A stretch of 64,000 nt of DNA from Pseudomonas rubra. Lineage in GTDB: Bacteria > Pseudomonadota > Gammaproteobacteria > Pseudomonadales > Pseudomonadaceae. The stretch lies in contig NZ_JAMDGZ010000035.1 in the NCBI RefSeq assembly GCF_028656935.1, positions 62,001-126,000 on the forward strand, given 5' to 3'. Shown here piece after piece: positions 12,892-34,043 of the stretch (position 1 is the stretch's first letter; the number at the start of each line of letters is the position of its first letter). The notes beneath the pieces are model-generated. The model had not been told where the DNA came from, made no database searches, and worked only from the letters and a program-made list of their open reading frames with translations. Position numbers and translations under genes: made by a program.

Positions 12892-13043
12892 CAACGGATG
12901 CGCCCGTGTGGTGCGGGGAACGCCGGGTCAGGCCGGCAAATAAGAATTGAACTCATCGACATGGTTGCTGGTCAGTCCTTGCTCTGATGGCGGGTATCTG
13001 GATAATGCCCGACTTTTTCGCCAACCCGAGTCCGTTGCTGCTT

Positions 13044-26590: not shown

Positions 26591-26715
26591 AGTCCAGTTC
26601 CTTGGAAACTCGTTATTGTTCGTTTGGCACGACAACGGGCGTTCCTGCCCACGTGCGCTGTAGCCGAATAGTACTCTGTTGACCGGGGCAGGGAAGCCTG
26701 TGTTCCAGGCTATTT

Positions 26716-27813
26716 TCAGGCCAGATGCAGGTGGTTGTCCCAGAGCCCCGAAGGCAGTTGCAGCGGCTGGCCGATCAACTCGCTTTTGCGGCAATCGTAC
26801 AGGCGGCAACGGCCCTGGCCGGAGGTCACGACAAAGCCATCTGCCACGGCGCCGACCCCGGCGCAATCTGGCATAGGGGCGTCCAGGCGTACTTGGCCGC
26901 TGTCCAGGTCCCAGATAAACAGGCGGTTGGCCCGGGGCGCCGTCAGGGCGACCAGGCGTAATTGGTTATGAACGGCGACGCTGGCCGTGTAGTGGGCCAT
27001 TGACTGCAACTGCTGCTCGGGCACCGGGAAGGCTGTGAACGCCTGGCCCGGCCGCTTGATCGCCAGCAGCTCGGCGGTGTCGTGGCTGGCGCCCATGTAC
27101 TGCTGGCCGGCGACGATGGTGCCATCGGCGGCAATTGCCAGGTGGCGCACGCTGTTCATTTGCTGGCTGAGCAGCTCTTTGCTCAGCAGGGTGCCGTCGC
27201 GCTGCATCAGCACCAGGCTTGGCTGCATGGCATCGAGGTTCATCTCCACCCGGCTTTCGGCCTCGGTGCGGATGCCGCCGTTGGCCACCACCAGGGTTTC
27301 GCCGTCAGGCATCCACGACACCTGGTGCGGGCCGATGCCATGGGTGGAGATTTCGCCGGTATGGTTCAGACGCTCGCCGTCGAAGCGGTAGACACCGAGT
27401 ACGCCGCGACCAGGGTCGGTGGTGTCGTTCTCTGTGGCGTACAGCCACTCACCGCTCTTGTGGATCACCGCATGGCCGTAGAAATGCCGGTTCGGCTGCG
27501 AGGCGATGGTCTGCAGCAAGCGTCCGTCGCGCAGGTCGATCAGGTAGCTCTCGGTGCCGGGGCGACGGGCGACGAACAGGGCAATCGGCTGCTCGGGATG
27601 GTTGATGATGTCGTGGCAACGCTGGCCCACCTGGGTGGCGAACACCTGAGTACCGTCCAGGCGGTAGCCAACGGCGTAGTGCCTGCCGTCGCCATCGTCG
27701 CGCGCCGAGAGCAGCAGCGGTGTACCGCTCTTGTTGCGAAACAGGGTCCAGCCGCCGAGGGTGAGGGCGCTGAGCACAACGCTACCGAGTTTGAGAGCCT
27801 GGCGTCGCAACAT
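26716..27813 (-). CDS. DUF1513 exported beta-propeller-like protein
   Basis: A 365-residue protein with an export signal RRQALKLGSVVLSALTLGGW. The RR-x-x-x-L-K start resembles a Tat signal. The body has repeated WD/propeller-like strands such as VGYRLDGTQVFATQVGQRCHDI, HFYGHAVIHKSGEWLYATEND and GPHQVSWMPDGETLVVANGG. The family is uncharacterised but is regularly last in clusters with imelysins and di-heme cytochrome-like proteins, implying a role in periplasmic iron handling. It starts 2 bases after the upstream imelysin stop. Confidence 0.85.
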   Translation of the reverse strand: MLRRQALKLGSVVLSALTLGGWTLFRNKSGTPLLLSARDDGDGRHYAVGYRLDGTQVFATQVGQRCHDIINHPEQPIALFVARRPGTESYLIDLRDGRLLQTIASQPNRHFYGHAVIHKSGEWLYATENDTTDPGRGVLGVYRFDGERLNHTGEISTHGIGPHQVSWMPDGETLVVANGGIRTEAESRVEMNLDAMQPSLVLMQRDGTLLSKELLSQQMNSVRHLAIAADGTIVAGQQYMGASHDTAELLAIKRPGQAFTAFPVPEQQLQSMAHYTASVAVHNQLRLVALTAPRANRLFIWDLDSGQVRLDAPMPDCAGVGAVADGFVVTSGQGRCRLYDCRKSELIGQPLQLPSGLWDNHLHLA

Positions 27814-27815
27814 GA

Positions 27816-28880
27816 TCAGTCACCGTCGTTGGCGTTGAAGCCCAGCTGAATGCCCAGCGCCTTGGCCAGTTCGCCTTCGTGCAGGCGGTGGACGACGTTG
27901 AGGCTGTCGTAAAGAGTGTTGAGCTGCTGGCGACCGGCTTCGTCGTCGAGCAACTCACCCAGGCTCTTCTGGTTGCTGGCCAGCAGCTTGATCGAGTCAG
28001 CGTAGGCGGCGTCGATCTTGTCGGCCAGGGCTTGTTGGTCTTTGCCCAGCAGGCCGCGCAGGCCCTTGTTATCGACCCCGACCCAGACGGTCTGGGCGGC
28101 GATCAGGCTGGCTTCCAGGCTCTTCAGCGAGGTGTGGCTGCGCCAGGCTTCTGCCTGCAGTGGTTGTGGGATGCCCTTGCTCAGGCGGCCCATGGGCGCG
28201 CCAAGCTTCTTCTTCAGGGTGTCCAGGGCGGTGACCTGGGCGCGCAGCAGGTCGGCGATGGCCTCGTGGGAATCGGCATAGCGCTGGTTGGGGAACTTGG
28301 TCATCTGCGCGAGCATGCCGTCGGTGCTGTTCCAGCCCTTGAGGATTTCCTCGGCCAGAGTCTTCTGGTGTTCGCCGATGGCCACCAGCAGTGGGCAGTA
28401 GCGGGCTTTCTGTTCGGCGTTGGCAGTGTCTGGCTTGCTGTCGAAGAGAATGTATTCGTAAGCCGACAGGCCGCGCACAACAACGCTGGATTTGCCCAGG
28501 GTCTGAGCATCGACCGGCGTGTCAGCGTTGACCAGTTGCTCGACCTGGCGGCCAACCAGGTTCTTCTTGTCGGGCCAGAACTGCACCTGCCAGGCGCGGT
28601 TGCCTTCGGCCAGCGGGCCGATCAACAGTGGTTGCAGCTCGGCCCAGGCTTTTTGCGCGTGGAGGTAGTCGGCGCGGGCTGTGGCCAGATCGGCCTTGCC
28701 TTCACAGAAGGCCAGGGCGCTGACGGCCAGTTGCCGGTCAGCTTCGACCCAGCGGCTGTAGGTCGGCAGGATCACCTGTTTGGCGATCGCCGCCGAGGTC
28801 ACCGCTTGTGGGTCTTGCGGCGAGCAGGCGCCAAGGGCGAGGGCGGCAAGGCTGGTGAACAACAGTTTGGGACGGAACAT
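27816..28880 (-). CDS. Imelysin-family lipoprotein with degenerate signature
   Basis: A 354-residue lipoprotein (lipobox LALGACSP). It has the imelysin/EfeO-like fold: SRWVEADRQLAVSALAFC near the N-terminus, then RAWQVQFWPDKKNLVGRQV. The signature helix reads RGLSAYEYILFD, where the family GxHxxE has become GxSAYE: the Glu is kept and the His is lost. Its partner IcmP in the same cluster keeps the motif. Imelysins such as IrpA and EfeO are implicated in iron uptake. It sits 15 bases after the di-heme gene and 2 bases before the DUF1513 gene, so it is operonic. Confidence 0.88.
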   Translation of the reverse strand: MFRPKLLFTSLAALALGACSPQDPQAVTSAAIAKQVILPTYSRWVEADRQLAVSALAFCEGKADLATARADYLHAQKAWAELQPLLIGPLAEGNRAWQVQFWPDKKNLVGRQVEQLVNADTPVDAQTLGKSSVVVRGLSAYEYILFDSKPDTANAEQKARYCPLLVAIGEHQKTLAEEILKGWNSTDGMLAQMTKFPNQRYADSHEAIADLLRAQVTALDTLKKKLGAPMGRLSKGIPQPLQAEAWRSHTSLKSLEASLIAAQTVWVGVDNKGLRGLLGKDQQALADKIDAAYADSIKLLASNQKSLGELLDDEAGRQQLNTLYDSLNVVHRLHEGELAKALGIQLGFNANDGD

Positions 28881-28895
28881 GCCCGGCTCCTTTGC

Positions 28896-30323
28896 TTAAA
28901 GTGAATTCAGAAAGGCCAGCAACGCGGCGCGCTGCTCGGCATTGAAGGTCAGTACATGCTGCTTGGCCGCCTCGGCCTCGCCGCCGTGCCAGAGCACGGC
29001 TTCGAGCAGGTTGCGGGCGCGGCCATCGTGAAGGAACTGGGTGTGACCGCTGACAGTCTCGTTCAAGCCGATGCCCCACAGCGGCGGGGTGCGCCAGTCC
29101 AGGCCGCTAGCGGCGAACTCGCTGCGGTTGTCCGCCAGGCCCGGGCCCATGTCATGCAGCAGCAGGTCGCTGTAGGGGCGAATCAGCTGGTTGGCCAGCT
29201 CCGGCTCGGCGGCGTCGCTGGCCGTGGTGAATTGCGGGGTGTGGCAGCTTTGGCAACCGGCCTGGTGAAACAGGTTCTTGCCCGCCAGCACCTGGGTCGA
29301 GTCGACATCCTTGCGCATCGGCACGGCGAGATTACGGGTGTAGAACAGCACCAGGCGCAGGATGTTGTCACTGACTTCCTGCTCGCCATTGGCACCGTTG
29401 CCATTGGGTGCGTTCAGGCAGTCGGTTTGCGCCTGGGTGCAATCGTCCATAGGCCGAAGGCTGGTGGTCAGGCCCATGTCGCCGGAGAAGGCGTGGACAT
29501 TCTGCTGGTTGAGGTTCGGCTGCCCGGCCTTCCAGCCAAAGCGCCCGAGCACAGTCTTGCCCTGGGCATCGTCCCACACCTGGTTGGCACGGCCACGGAT
29601 GCCATCGCCGTTACGATCATCCGGATCGGCATTGGCCAGGATCGCCGCCTCGGGGATGGCCTCAAGCAGGCCCAGGCCAATCATCGGCGGGGCGATGCGG
29701 GCCGAGAAGCGTGTGTCCGGGTGCATGGCGCCATAGCCTAGCTGCGTGATTTGCAGCCGGGGCTTGCGCAGCTCGACTGTGGTGCCGTCCTTGAAGGTGA
29801 CCTGCCGGGGCTCGTATTCGACCCGGACCTTGCCTTCCGGGGCGACACCGGGCACCGCCATGTCTTGCAACTGACCGCCGTAAACTGGCTCTGGAACGAT
29901 ACCCAGCTGCTCGATGATTTTGGCGTATTGCGGCTGGTCGGGGATCGACAGGCGTACCAGCATGGACACCGCGTTCGTCGCGTTTGGGCCGGGCGGGTGG
30001 CCGCGGCCATCCTTGATGTGGCAGTTCTGGCAGGCGTTGGTATTGAACAACGGGCCGAGGCCGTCGCGGGCGGTGGTGGTCGACGGGGCGATCACCCAGG
30101 GATTGCGGAAGAAGCTGTTACCGACACTGAAGTCCAGGCGTCGGCTCGGCGCCAGGTTGGCCGAGGGCATGGAGTAGGCATTCTGGTCGCGCTTGTTCAC
30201 TGTCGCCTTGCCACCGGCCAGTGCTTCACCGGGCTCGGCCTGGGTGAATCGCGGGGCGTCGTCGCAACCGGCCAGGAACAGGGCCAGAAGCAGGGGACTG
30301 AGGCGGGGAAGCAACGAGGACAT
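28896..30323 (-). CDS. Di-heme cytochrome c peroxidase-like / DUF1111 thiol-oxidoreductase-type lipoprotein
   Basis: A 475-residue lipoprotein (lipobox LFLAGCDD) with two c-type haem sites: NACQNCHIKDGRGHPPG (about residue 97) and AGCQSCHTPQF (about 355). It has the DUF1111 layout, including PWVIAPSTTTARDGLGPLFN and GHTQFLHDGRARNLLEAVLWHGGEAE. It is probably an outer-membrane-anchored or periplasmic electron-transfer protein. It heads the transcription unit with the downstream imelysin and DUF1513 genes. The ATG at 30323 is preferred to a TTG one codon earlier. A link to iron reduction or oxidation is inference from the neighbours. Confidence 0.87.
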   Translation of the reverse strand: MSSLLPRLSPLLLALFLAGCDDAPRFTQAEPGEALAGGKATVNKRDQNAYSMPSANLAPSRRLDFSVGNSFFRNPWVIAPSTTTARDGLGPLFNTNACQNCHIKDGRGHPPGPNATNAVSMLVRLSIPDQPQYAKIIEQLGIVPEPVYGGQLQDMAVPGVAPEGKVRVEYEPRQVTFKDGTTVELRKPRLQITQLGYGAMHPDTRFSARIAPPMIGLGLLEAIPEAAILANADPDDRNGDGIRGRANQVWDDAQGKTVLGRFGWKAGQPNLNQQNVHAFSGDMGLTTSLRPMDDCTQAQTDCLNAPNGNGANGEQEVSDNILRLVLFYTRNLAVPMRKDVDSTQVLAGKNLFHQAGCQSCHTPQFTTASDAAEPELANQLIRPYSDLLLHDMGPGLADNRSEFAASGLDWRTPPLWGIGLNETVSGHTQFLHDGRARNLLEAVLWHGGEAEAAKQHVLTFNAEQRAALLAFLNSL

Positions 30324-30416
30324 CAATGATCCTGGGGCTTGGGCAAAAACCGGCGTGCAAGCTTAGCAGGGTCGGGGTAATTGAATAAGAGGGATTTGCG
30401 TTTGCTTGATGAAATC

Positions 30417-30457
30417 TGTGGGAGCGGCGATGCGTCGACCCGACTTGCCCCGCGATG
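30417..30457. repeat. Diverged REP element
   Basis: TGTGGGAGCGGCGATGCGTC followed by GACTTGCCCCGCGATG: outer arms of the Pseudomonas REP with an altered centre. It lies between icmP and the di-heme gene. Confidence 0.7.
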
Positions 30458-30465
30458 CTGTAAAT

Positions 30466-30494
30466 GAAAAAGGCGACCCGAAGGCCGCCTCTTT
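30466..30494 (-). terminator. Terminator downstream of icmP
   Basis: On the minus strand AGGCG, a short loop, then CGCCT followed by TTTTTC forms a hairpin plus T-run about 15 bases after the icmP stop. It separates icmP from the downstream di-heme operon. Confidence 0.7.
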
Positions 30495-30508
30495 AAACCG
30501 CTGCCGAA

Positions 30509-31843
30509 TCAGAACTCGTGATCAGCGGTGTCCGGTGCCAGATTGGTGATGCCCAGTTTACCTGCGGCTTGTTCGATCGCGCCGGTCTGCTTGACCAGGG
30601 AAGCGATGGCGTCACGCACGATCTGGTTGCCGGCGGTGTTGTCGGCGGCGATCAGTTGGTCGTAGTGCTCACCTTTGGCGGCGTGGTCGACGATCACCTG
30701 GATCTTGGCTTCGGTGGCTTCCAGGTCAGCCTTGAGGGTGCTGTCGGTAGCGGCGTCGACCTTGGCGACCAGCGAGGACAGGCTCGGGCCGGTCAGCTTG
30801 GTGCCGTCGGTGCGGGTGTATTCGCCCAGGTAGACGTTGCGGATGCCCTTGGCGTCGTAGAAGTGCGAGTTGTGGGTGTTGTCGCTGAAGCAGTCATGCT
30901 CGTCTTCAGGCGAGTTGGCTTCCAGGGATACCTTCATGCGCTCACCAGCCAGTTCGCCCAGCGACAGGCTGCCCATGCCGAACAGCATTTTGCGCAGGCC
31001 GTCGGCGACAGGCTCGGCTTCAAGGGTGGCGCGGTAGTTGGTTGCCACGTTTGGCGCCCAGTTGCCGACCATCTCTTCGAGGTCGCTGACCAGCAGTTGG
31101 GTCACGGCCTTGAGGTAGGCACGACGGCGCTCGTTGTGGCCGCCGGTAGCGCCCTGGCCTTCGAGGTAATCGGATGCTGGACGGGCACCGGCGCCTGGGC
31201 CGGTGCCATTGAGGTCCTGGCCCCAGAGCAGGAACTCGATCGCGTGGTAGCCGGTGGCAACGTTGGCTTCGGAACCGCCCAGCTCGTTCAGGCTGGCCAG
31301 TTTCTCCGGGGTGATGTCCTTGACGTCGATCTTGTCTTCGCCGACCTGGATTTGCGTGTTGGCGATGATGTTGGCGGTAGCGCCAGGGTTGCCCAGGGCA
31401 TGCTCGTAGCTCTTGTCGACGTAGTCGATAAGGCCTTCGTCCAGCGGCCAGGCGTTCACCTGACCTTCCCAGTCGTCGATGATGGTGTTGCCGAAGCGGA
31501 ACACTTCACTCTGCAGGTACGGCACGCGGGAGGCGATCCAGGCAGCTTTGGCAGCGTTCAGGGTCTCGGCATTGGGCTTGGCGAGGAAGGCGTCGACAGC
31601 GGTTTGCAGGGTCTTGGCGGTGCTCAGCGAGTCGCTGTAGACCGCATGGACGATATCGGCGTAATGCTTGACCACGGCCTTGGCCGCTGCCTCGTCGACA
31701 GCACCTGCGGCGGCAGGAGCGGCAGCGGAGGTGCTGGCGGCCGGCGTTTGTGGTGCGGCGGCTTTGTCCTTGCTGTCGCCGCAACCGGCGAGAGAGATGG
31801 CGATGGCCAACAGACTGGCGGTGGCCAGAGGCATACGAATCAT
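30509..31843 (-). CDS. icmP: Imelysin-family lipoprotein IcmP (insulin-cleaving metalloproteinase homologue)
   Basis: A 444-residue lipoprotein (ISLAGCGD lipobox, then an Ala/Pro linker). The conserved signature GYHAIEFLLWGQD (GxHxxE) is intact, and a later DNTHNSHFYDAKGIRNVYLG region is typical of the family. The P. aeruginosa homologue was named an insulin-cleaving metalloprotease, but structural work on imelysins favours iron binding or uptake over proteolysis. A Fur-box candidate lies 63 bases upstream. ATG at 31843 gives the cleanest signal peptide (IRMPLATASLLAIAISLAGC). It is followed by its own terminator. Confidence 0.9.
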   Translation of the reverse strand: MIRMPLATASLLAIAISLAGCGDSKDKAAAPQTPAASTSAAAPAAAGAVDEAAAKAVVKHYADIVHAVYSDSLSTAKTLQTAVDAFLAKPNAETLNAAKAAWIASRVPYLQSEVFRFGNTIIDDWEGQVNAWPLDEGLIDYVDKSYEHALGNPGATANIIANTQIQVGEDKIDVKDITPEKLASLNELGGSEANVATGYHAIEFLLWGQDLNGTGPGAGARPASDYLEGQGATGGHNERRRAYLKAVTQLLVSDLEEMVGNWAPNVATNYRATLEAEPVADGLRKMLFGMGSLSLGELAGERMKVSLEANSPEDEHDCFSDNTHNSHFYDAKGIRNVYLGEYTRTDGTKLTGPSLSSLVAKVDAATDSTLKADLEATEAKIQVIVDHAAKGEHYDQLIAADNTAGNQIVRDAIASLVKQTGAIEQAAGKLGITNLAPDTADHEF

Positions 31844-31905
31844 GGCGAATTCCTGCGTCGAGAGGTTGGACAAGCGTACCGGGGCACGCAAAACTGCAAC
31901 ATAAT

Positions 31906-31924
31906 GCGAAAGATTTGCATTTTC
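31906..31924 (-). promoter_or_regulatory. Fur-box candidate upstream of icmP
   Basis: On the minus strand GAAAATGCAAATCTTTCGC agrees with the 19-base Fur consensus at 13 positions. It sits 63-81 bases before the icmP start codon in an AT-rich stretch. Iron repression of the imelysin gene is the prediction. Confidence 0.5.
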
Positions 31925-31991
31925 TGTAAAGAGGCAGTCACGTAAATATTCAAATGCGTGTTTCTGCCTCTTCGGGCCATGCAGACAAGGG

Positions 31992-34043
31992 TTACAGGAT
32001 CGAAACCTGGTTGCGCTGCGCCTGTTTGAGGAACGCGGTCAACTCCCGGGCTGGCAGAGGTTTGCTGTAGTGGTAGCCCTGACCTTCGTGGCAACCCTGG
32101 GCAATGATGTAGGCCTCCTGTTCGGCGGTCTCCACACCTTCGGCGATGACCTGCATGCCCAGGCTCTTGCCCAACTGGATGATGGCGCGAACGATTGTGG
32201 CATCGTCGTCATCATCGAGCAGGTCCTGGACGAAGCTCTTGTCGATCTTGATCTTGTCCAGCGGCAGCGACTTCAGGTAGCTGAGCGAGGAGTAGCCGGT
32301 ACCAAAGTCATCAATGGCAATCAGCGCCCCGGAACGGCGCAGGCTCAACAGGTGCTGGGCAGCGGTACTGATGTCTTCCATCAGGCCGGTCTCGGTGACT
32401 TCCAGCTCCAGGCTGCGTGGGGGCAGGCGGTAGATCTGCAGCAGGTTGTTGACCACCCGCGGCAGTTCGTTGTGGTGCAACTGCACGGTGGACAGGTTGA
32501 CCGCCATGCGCAGTTCGCTGAAGCCCTGGTCGTGCCAGTCGCGCAATTGCCGGCAAGCCTGGTCGAGCACCCACTCGCCGATGCTGATGATGTTGCCGTT
32601 TTGCTCGGCCAGGGGGATGAACTGGTCAGGCGGCACCATGCCCAGCTCCGGATGCTGCCAGCGCAGCAGCGCCTCGACACCGACCACGCGGTGGTCGCGG
32701 TAGCTGATCTGCGGTTGATAGACCAGGAACAGCTGGTTGCGAGACAAGGCTTCGCGCAGGTCCTTTTCCAGTTCGCGACGCCGGCGCATCTCGCTGTCGA
32801 CGCTGGCGATATAGAACTGGTAGCGGTTGCGCGAGCGAGCTTTGGCCAGGGTCATGGTTTGCTCGGCCTTTTGCAGCAGTTTCTCGGTGCTGTCGCCGTC
32901 TTCGGGGAACAGGGTGATGCCGATGGTGGCGCGCAGGCGGATTTCCTGATGGTCGAGGGCAAAGGGCGCTTCGAGGTCATCGAGGATGCTCTGGGCCAGT
33001 TCGGCCGCCTCGTAGGGTTGCTCGATGTCGGCCTGGACCAGGGCGAACTGGTCGCCGCCCAGGCGCGCCAGGGCGCCGAGCCGGCCACTGTGGGCACGCA
33101 GGCGATCGGCCAGGGCCAGCAGCAACTGGTCGCCGGCCTGGTAGCTGAACTGCTCGTTGATGCCCTTGAAGTCGTCCAGACCGACGCACAATACTGCCAC
33201 CCGGCGTTGCAGGCGACCGGCATCGACGAGGATTTTGTCCAGTTGCTGTTGCAACTGCTGACGGTTCGGCAGGCCGGTGAGGAAGTCGTATTGGGCCATG
33301 CGCAACAGGCTGTTCTCGGCCTCGTGGCGCAGGTGGGTGTTGCGCTCGATGGATGCCAGCAACTGGTTGGCGGTGTTCACCCACACGCCCAGTTCGTTCT
33401 TTTCGTGGCCCTTGATCAGCGGCAACTGGTGCTGGCTGGGGCGGTCGGGGTTGATCTGGGTAAGGTGCTCAATGATCTTGGACAGCGGTTTGGTCAGCAT
33501 CCAGTGATAGACCAGGTACAGCACCAGGCCCATGGCCAGGGCGCGCAACACCCCGGAAATGAAGATGATCACCGAGCTGACCAGAAAGCCTTCGCCATAA
33601 GAGGCGGTGTCGAGGGTGATGCTCAGGTCGCCGTAATATTCACTGTAGGGGCCGCGGCCGACCAGTTGGGTGGTGAAGCTGCGCTCCTGGCCCAGAATGA
33701 GGTCGGTCAGCCAGCGACTGGACACTTCCTGCAGCGGGCGGGATTTCTCTGCGAGCATGGTTTCGTTGGGATGGCCGATGGAGGCCATGCGCACGGACTC
33801 GTCCTGGAATAGACCTTCCATGACCTGCATGCCCATTTCCTTGTCCAGGCTATATACCGCCTGGGTCGAAGGATCACGGAACATGTCGAGGATCCGCTGG
33901 GCGTCACTGGCGACGGCTTGGCGGGTCTTGTAAGCATCGAAGACGATCTGCGCACAACTGAGAACTACACCGACGATCAACGCCGAGAGCAGCACTACCC
34001 TGAGCAACTTGACCGATAAGCTGTTCTTGAGTTCCAGCTTCAA
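31992..34043 (-). CDS. bifA: Cyclic-di-GMP phosphodiesterase BifA (degenerate GGDEF + EAL)
   Basis: A 683-residue inner-membrane protein. Helices at about 12-35 and 155-180 bracket a periplasmic domain. A HAMP-like segment leads to a GGDEF domain whose active site is GGDQF (about residue 335), hence inactive as a cyclase. A full EAL domain follows with EALLRWQHP, the metal ligands in EVTETGLMED and DDFGTGYSSLSYL, and the catalytic EGVET. BifA degrades c-di-GMP, lowering biofilm and promoting motility and biofilm dispersal. The GGDQF variant is that of BifA. I choose the TTG at 34043: AAGGAA lies 6 bases upstream and the product opens KLELKNSLSVKLL; an ATG at 34076 would add 11 residues. Confidence 0.92.
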   Translation of the reverse strand: MKLELKNSLSVKLLRVVLLSALIVGVVLSCAQIVFDAYKTRQAVASDAQRILDMFRDPSTQAVYSLDKEMGMQVMEGLFQDESVRMASIGHPNETMLAEKSRPLQEVSSRWLTDLILGQERSFTTQLVGRGPYSEYYGDLSITLDTASYGEGFLVSSVIIFISGVLRALAMGLVLYLVYHWMLTKPLSKIIEHLTQINPDRPSQHQLPLIKGHEKNELGVWVNTANQLLASIERNTHLRHEAENSLLRMAQYDFLTGLPNRQQLQQQLDKILVDAGRLQRRVAVLCVGLDDFKGINEQFSYQAGDQLLLALADRLRAHSGRLGALARLGGDQFALVQADIEQPYEAAELAQSILDDLEAPFALDHQEIRLRATIGITLFPEDGDSTEKLLQKAEQTMTLAKARSRNRYQFYIASVDSEMRRRRELEKDLREALSRNQLFLVYQPQISYRDHRVVGVEALLRWQHPELGMVPPDQFIPLAEQNGNIISIGEWVLDQACRQLRDWHDQGFSELRMAVNLSTVQLHHNELPRVVNNLLQIYRLPPRSLELEVTETGLMEDISTAAQHLLSLRRSGALIAIDDFGTGYSSLSYLKSLPLDKIKIDKSFVQDLLDDDDDATIVRAIIQLGKSLGMQVIAEGVETAEQEAYIIAQGCHEGQGYHYSKPLPARELTAFLKQAQRNQVSIL

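Follow-up and report, generated by a model that had tools for sequence, protein, structure and literature searches.

The window analysed here, by which we mean the whole stretch of 64,000 nucleotides of Pseudomonas rubra (contig NZ_JAMDGZ010000035.1, positions 62,001 to 126,000), carries on its minus strand, at 26716-31843, a cluster of four genes for exported proteins: the imelysin IcmP, a di-haem protein of the DHOR (DUF1111) type, a second imelysin without the motif histidine, and a DUF1513 protein. The cluster had been placed here by an earlier interpretation of the letters alone (the sequence-only reading), which proposed an iron-acquisition system; Pfam confirms all the families, and the motifs are present, namely GYHAIE, GLSAYE, two CxxCH motifs in DHOR, and the DUF1513 N-terminus MLRRQALKLG. 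The genes and features of the locus, in positions of the window, are the following.

30509-31843, minus strand: icmP, imelysin with intact GxHxxE (GYHAIE) and lipobox-like LAGC; Pfam Peptidase_M75, E 1.8e-89
28896-30326, minus strand: DHOR/DUF1111 di-haem protein with lipobox-like LAGC; Pfam PF06537, E 6.6e-96
27816-28880, minus strand: second imelysin, IPPA type without the motif His, with lipobox-like LGAC; Pfam Peptidase_M75, E 2.5e-60
26716-27813, minus strand: DUF1513 protein with twin-arginine-like start; Pfam DUF1513, E 1.8e-117; modelled as a seven-bladed propeller
31903-31921, no strand assigned: Fur-type operator of icmP, AATGCAAATCTTTCGCATT on the minus strand; matrix rank 1 of 63,982
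30384-30402, no strand assigned: second Fur-type operator, upstream of DHOR, AACGCAAATCCCTCTTATT on the minus strand; matrix rank 3 of 63,982
31901-31930, minus strand: promoter-like hexamers TTTACA and CATTAT, spacer 18, around the icmP operator
30467-30490, minus strand: hairpin and T-run 3' of icmP, probable terminator; 12 pairs, -20.4 kcal/mol, z -2.89
30018-30032, minus strand: first haem motif of DHOR, CQNCH; C99, C102 and H103 invariant in 31 sequences
29241-29255, minus strand: second haem motif of DHOR, CQSCH; C358, C361 and H362 invariant in 31 sequences
28455-28472, minus strand: GLSAYE replacing GxHxxE in the second imelysin
27819-27827, minus strand: C-terminal Asp-Gly-Asp (D-G-D) of the second imelysin

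The DHOR, second imelysin and DUF1513 genes are taken as one unit because the gaps between them are only 15 and 2 nucleotides, and icmP lies upstream, with about 185 nucleotides from its end to the DHOR start codon, for which an ATG (30323) three bases downstream of the listed TTG (30326) is the likelier candidate. The lipobox-like motifs were read by eye. These two imelysins are the only ones that Pfam finds in the whole genome, with no third.

The cluster is a copy of a known module, of the PA4370-PA4373 and VC1264-VC1267 type, of which PA4373 and VC1267 are presumably the DUF1513 members. As in that module, the DUF1111 protein is encoded between two imelysins, the second of which is of the IPPA type with GxxxxE. 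Xu et al. described PA4370-PA4373 as a Fur-regulated operon that encodes a DUF1111 protein and a pair of imelysin-like proteins, named the IPPA family with its GxxxxE motif, and identified the Vibrio imelysin pair as VC1264/VC1266 (PMC3143127).

Two Fur-type operators accompany the genes. The matrix, trained on 15 palindromic sites found in other parts of the genome and yielding no sites in a backward-read control, ranked the icmP operator first among the 63,982 positions of the window, 12939-12957 second (score 13.0) and the DHOR operator third. The icmP operator sits between, and partly over, the promoter-like hexamers at 31901-31930, the only such match in 26600-32100, where shuffles predict 0.8 by chance. 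Among relatives, after exclusion of rows with low identity, late alignment start, or short or duplicate upstream regions, a best upstream score of at least 10 was reached by 47 of 48 icmP genes and 38 of 44 DHOR genes, against 1 of 44 for the second imelysin and none of 44 for DUF1513; shuffled upstream regions, which preserve single-base content only, gave mean best scores of 2.75 (icmP) and 1.31 (DHOR). Furthermore, the icmP operator is forward in 29 of the 48 relatives and inverted in 10 (reverse-complemented in L082, L084, L086, L087, L088, L092, L106, L107, L110 and L112), and its occurrence both ways round fits a palindromic site, as expected of a dyad recognised by a dimer. The DHOR operator is retained in relatives whose icmP sits elsewhere.

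The 13/19 Fur-box match noticed earlier at 31906-31924 exists and overlaps the first site, but the conserved 19-mer is 31903-31921; moreover, the idea of a single Fur box for the cluster gives way to two sites, which, as read from the sequence, serve two units, icmP alone and DHOR-second imelysin-DUF1513. One operator for the whole cluster is rejected in view of the second operator together with the hairpin after icmP, a hairpin that was not among the terminators listed by the terminator scan. The link to iron is supported by the two conserved operators and by published regulation of related clusters: the P. aeruginosa and V. cholerae versions are stated to be Fur-regulated (PMC3143127), VC1264 and VC1265 are among the iron-limitation transcripts common to V. 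cholerae and A. salmonicida (PMC4324432), and dipyridyl induces the putative lruB-di-haem oxidoreductase-imelysin operon of Leptospira, which likewise comprises an imelysin, a di-haem protein and an imelysin, but has a TonB receptor gene nearby and no DUF1513 seen in the part of the source drawn on (PMC13066512). The cluster is probably switched on under iron shortage.

Retention of the module genes in the genus is all-or-none. Each of icmP, DHOR and the second imelysin was found in 58 of 59 sampled genomes, and in the sole exception, rated 100% complete, all four genes were unmatched, DUF1513 included. The distance from icmP to the second imelysin was at most 3.5 kb in 39 of the 58 genomes and larger on the same contig in 11, with icmP on another contig in 8, a number that may in part reflect assembly breaks; icmP is kept without linkage, since it is present in all 58 though distant or on another contig in 19. 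In one genome (G147, locus L112, C1:5620069-5621423), icmP lies in two frames beside a whole DHOR and a whole second imelysin, and a sequencing error is possible there. Beyond the genus, 14 of the 114 genomes of a class sample carried imelysins, with DHOR close by in 12 of them, and DUF1513 exceeded the cut-off in 7, adjoining an imelysin in 5 (both judged by eye). In a phylum sample of 299 genomes, imelysins were present in 73 and DUF1513 over the cut-off in 55, and in 55 of these 55 a DUF1513 gene had an imelysin within 1 kb, one of them also having a second DUF1513 with no imelysin nearby. Around DHOR in the named loci, which are the best 80 of 593 confirmed relatives (48 of the 80 titled Pseudomonas or Stutzerimonas, by eye), an IcmP relative was found in 72, the second imelysin in 77 and DUF1513 in 71, some of the misses being contig ends.

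IcmP is an imelysin of the ICMP/LruB type, with the M75 domain, GxHxxE, and H200 and E203 invariant in 29 sequences, and it matches PDB 7xrx at E 6.5e-198. The second imelysin belongs to the already described IPPA family: it has the M75 domain and GxxxxE, is clustered with an ICMP-type imelysin and a DUF1111 protein, and its profile matches the IPPA structure 3pf0 at E 2.3e-47, with no family returned by NCBIfam. No row of its 32-row alignment has His at position 139, which places it outside the GxHxxE imelysins; the position holds S in 11, P in 10, T in 5, G in 4, F in 1 and Y in 1, and G137 is kept in 31 and E142 in 29. As six different letters, never H, stand there, the loss of His is old, and recent degeneration is rejected. 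The sequence-only reading had called this imelysin degenerate, as if by a local event, a view replaced by that of an old family with an invariant tail of its own; its companion proposal, that one imelysin binds metal with the other as partner, survives to the extent that IcmP keeps the motif and the His-less protein, judged from its family-wide loss, may be a partner.

The tail in question is a C-terminal D-G-D, found in 161 of 166 distinct complete open reading frames with a best match to the second-imelysin profile at loci with DHOR. Of the remainder, those of L040 and L265 carry GFHT[IM]E and are GxHxxE imelysins rather than His-less ones, that of L258 is a fragment, that of L257 lacks the tail, and that of L248 ends in DGDGS. 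Neither genome G235 (with the L258 fragment) nor G390 (with the tailless L257) has a DUF1513 match, as if by joint decay. Only four columns of the 32-row alignment are invariant, three of them the terminal residues, and IcmP relatives have other ends. IPPA (3pf0) itself terminates in DGD; its six C-terminal residues are disordered in the crystal, and the string DGD is absent from the main text of that paper (PMC3143127). A near-constant short acidic tail that is disordered in the lone protein suggests the binding of a partner or ligand. His-less imelysins of another type (by eye) end in DND at L047, L049, L256, L261 and L262, loci without DHOR, and adjoin TonB receptors in the three loci tested with Pfam (L047, L049 and L261); a His-less imelysin of that type also lies 3' of the carboxylase gene of L193, described below, and at L049 a DUF4856 protein stands beside the DND-type imelysin.

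Two CxxCH motifs and a predicted di-haem peroxidase fold place the DHOR protein with the DHOR/MauG type. Its model (31 sequences) has a mean predicted local distance difference test (pLDDT) score of 84.4, the stretch 78-102 with the first haem motif being poorly modelled. In the structural comparison the first 39 rows were all di-haem proteins and the next row had Z 3.0; matches included hydrazine synthase gamma (5c2v_C, Z 13.9, 216 residues, 3.2 A), a MauG-like copper-homeostasis protein (6e1c, Z 12.7, 228 residues, 3.4 A), MauG complexes (3rn0, Z 12.7) and bacterial cytochrome c peroxidases. Foldseek alone gave no match at E 0.001 (best 5c2v_C, 4.5e-3), and a PDB sequence search found no relative from the single sequence, with the profile giving just a c555 trimer fragment. 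The sequence-only reading had the di-haem protein supply redox for iron; the modelled fold would suit a peroxidase or an oxidative-modification role as well as electron transfer. One named relative, the DHOR of L146, is 85% identical. In the genome of the window, a second DHOR, 46% identical, follows genes for a TonB-receptor plug and a solute-binding protein on contig C34 (L111:4737-9383), and copies like it occur in four other sampled genomes of the genus, in one of them in two pieces. At L205:5079-6848 (Hyalangium), a gene for an RCC1-repeat protein lies upstream of DHOR; in Leptospira, too, a two-haem gene adjoins an RCC1 gene (PMC7567364).

The DUF1513 protein was modelled from 34 sequences as a seven-bladed propeller with a mean pLDDT of 89.8. 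R65, H67, R83, R84, H114, H163, H224, Y275, D359 and H361 are invariant in the 34 rows, and R223 and D316 are present in 33; by our own strand assignment, H67, H114, H163, H224, Y275, D316 and H361 fall one per blade, at most 3 residues from the inner strand. In this model, with the ring deduced from strand order, the His/Arg face may bind a metal or an anion. Lactonase-type propellers carry comparable residues. Very many propellers match DUF1513, 968 of 968 aligned chains having Z of at least 8, and its closeness to lactonases, nitrous oxide reductase or hydrazine synthase beta is therefore not specific. In the VIA-align lists used, a family that is missing is not thereby excluded. At the N-terminus, R3 is found in 23 and R4 in 22 of the 23 rows that cover it (11 of the 34 have a gap), and both stand in 9 of 9 rows of alignment A1.

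With moderate confidence, we regard the cluster as a Fur-repressed envelope module for iron acquisition with an oxidative di-haem partner, a copy of the PA4370-4373 and VC1264-1267 set. Gene content, the operators, co-retention, the tail and the predicted folds are what the data show; how the proteins are exported, bind iron, dock, act in redox and pass the iron to a transporter whose gene lies elsewhere is inferred, in the following way. Under iron shortage, Fur would leave both promoters, and all four proteins would be made and exported, the three with a lipobox-like motif becoming lipoproteins and DUF1513 probably leaving in folded form by the twin-arginine translocation (Tat) route. IcmP, with GxHxxE kept, would be the iron-binding member and the His-less imelysin an adapter, its D-G-D end a docking or hand-over signal; DHOR, as a protein of the MauG/cytochrome-peroxidase type, may alter the redox state of iron or oxidise a partner during capture, and the His/Arg-lined face of the DUF1513 propeller may bind iron, an iron chelate or an acidic partner. 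These last three would cooperate at capture or hand-over, and a transporter encoded elsewhere would complete the uptake. The His-less imelysins beside TonB receptors at L047, L049 and L261, the one after the carboxylase gene of L193, and the second DHOR of this genome near a TonB-receptor plug gene count in its favour. Of the sequence-only reading as a whole, the iron link is kept, and local degeneration and a single Fur box are not.

Several points weigh against this interpretation. Pfam finds no EfeU/Ftr1 permease among the four genes; the cluster resembles EfeUOB/M in its imelysin domain, haem enzyme and iron link, but differs in the lack of EfeU, in a haem protein that is a DHOR with two c-type motifs, and in having two imelysins. 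The DHOR operator scores 11.45 in the window, against 24-32 for the training sites and below the 13.0 of the site at 12939 outside the cluster; upstream of DHOR the score stays under 10 in 6 of 44 relatives, and single shuffle maxima reach 21.9 (icmP) and 19.2 (DHOR). Typical Fur targets make up just 6 of the 10 genes tested beside training sites (2 TonB receptors and 4 ECF sigma factors, with 3 genes of other families and 1 of no family). Class genomes G010 and G025, 2 of the 7 with DUF1513, carry it and an imelysin on different contigs, and the D-G-D tail persists where DUF1513 is absent, which means that DUF1513 cannot be its sole partner. By thermofluor, one GxHxxE and one His-less member showed no specific binding of ferric ion or haem, and stabilisation by zinc was likewise absent for both (PMC3143127). 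Finally, related genes of Riemerella keep their iron response in a fur mutant (PMC5609570).

Among the alternatives, it is possible, if on balance doubtful, that DHOR is mainly a peroxidase which removes peroxide at the iron capture site, preventing Fenton chemistry, and that the imelysins keep iron in a safe form instead of bringing it into the cell. The match of the model to bacterial cytochrome c peroxidases agrees with such a role, as does the rise of Leptospira imelysin and peroxidase-like genes with H2O2 and in a double perR mutant (PMC7567364, PMC8638851); Leptospira, however, is distant, and the operators here are of the Fur type.

An unlikely alternative is a DHOR that works like MauG or MbnH, oxidising a residue of an imelysin or of DUF1513 to create a metal site, which would make the system an iron analogue of the copper-linked pairs MbnPH, MopE-SACCP and CorAB. 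These pairs, too, comprise a MauG-like di-haem protein encoded with one or more exported partners and linked to a metal, and in MopE a tryptophan is converted to kynurenine (PMC3621798); the DHOR model fits MauG and the MauG-like copper-homeostasis protein equally, at Z 12.7 each. The partner families are different, however, and the operators here are Fur-type; the MbnP/MbnH models (TIGR04039/TIGR04052, numbers from PMC3621798) are unlisted for all four proteins at E 0.001, and the conserved Trp W79 and W183 of the second imelysin align with Trp positions of IcmP and look structural.

A related and rather improbable proposal concerns a modified, acid-rich iron site on imelysins. Here exported imelysins would be acted on by the MauG-like enzyme, joined in some further phyla by a homologue of vitamin-K-dependent gamma-carboxylase; their D-G-D or D-N-D end would either be the modified part or pass iron to a TonB receptor. 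The place of the carboxylase would be taken in Pseudomonadota by the DUF1513 propeller, in which one conserved polar residue lies in or close to the inner strand of every blade. To our knowledge, the role of bacterial vitamin-K-type carboxylase homologues is uncertain.

Among the best 80 of 593 relatives, the untruncated loci with a second imelysin and without DUF1513 are L150 (Deltaproteobacteria), L172 (Planctomycetota), L190 (Verrucomicrobiota), L193 (Agaribacillus) and L202 (Myxococcales), and in 5 of 5 a carboxylase homologue is the next or a near downstream gene. Together with that of L047, from the class sample, the homologues lie at these positions.

L150: 9622-10986
L172: 4037-5338
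L193: 12265-13641
L047: 8833-10272
L190: from 6416
L202: from 9332

Those of L150, L172 and L193 have the Pfam HTTM and VKGC lumenal domains. A profile of four carboxylase homologues matched six examined loci, its four source loci plus L202 (531 bits) and L190 (504 bits), with DUF1513 on none of them; for L202, a Pfam test of another frame found nothing, and NCBIfam gave no family for five carboxylase/DUF4856 proteins. At L047, a His-less imelysin, the carboxylase homologue and a TonB receptor are consecutive, and its source genome, G025, has DUF1513 on another contig. In the 299 Pseudomonadota genomes the carboxylase domain occurred once, in a genome without an imelysin match. In Riemerella, iron restriction raises the expression of genes whose locus tags are neighbours and which encode a TonB receptor, an imelysin and a vitamin K-dependent gamma-carboxylase, both in the wild type and in the fur mutant (PMC5609570); the pairing of imelysin with such a carboxylase was found in that paper alone, in a literature search outside which most subscription journals lay.

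That the module serves copper, zinc or manganese, with the Fur-type sites incidental, is very improbable: crystals of M75 superfamily relatives have contained bound Cu or Ca (as quoted in PMC9174327) and MauG-like partners occur in copper systems, but two operators are conserved in relatives and related clusters have published iron responses. IcmP as a secreted metallopeptidase, which its first name and a zinc-peptidase claim cited in PMC3143127 would suggest, has next to no chance of being right and was rejected on the structural argument of Xu et al. against imelysins as peptidases (PMC3143127).

Around the cluster, the flanking open reading frames resemble, by reading alone, genes for RND efflux, GGDEF/EAL proteins and superoxide dismutase.

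In brief, our data add to the known module a second operator, a separable icmP, the D-G-D tail of the His-less imelysin, predicted folds for DHOR and DUF1513, and the carboxylase homologue of loci without DUF1513. For the module itself, this offers a near-invariant C-terminal tripeptide open to deletion, two operators amenable to testing, a predicted DHOR fold that points toward MauG-type chemistry, and the close neighbourhood of DUF1513 and imelysin genes; and bacterial vitamin-K-type carboxylase homologues are now placed beside imelysin and di-haem genes at five loci outside Pseudomonadota.

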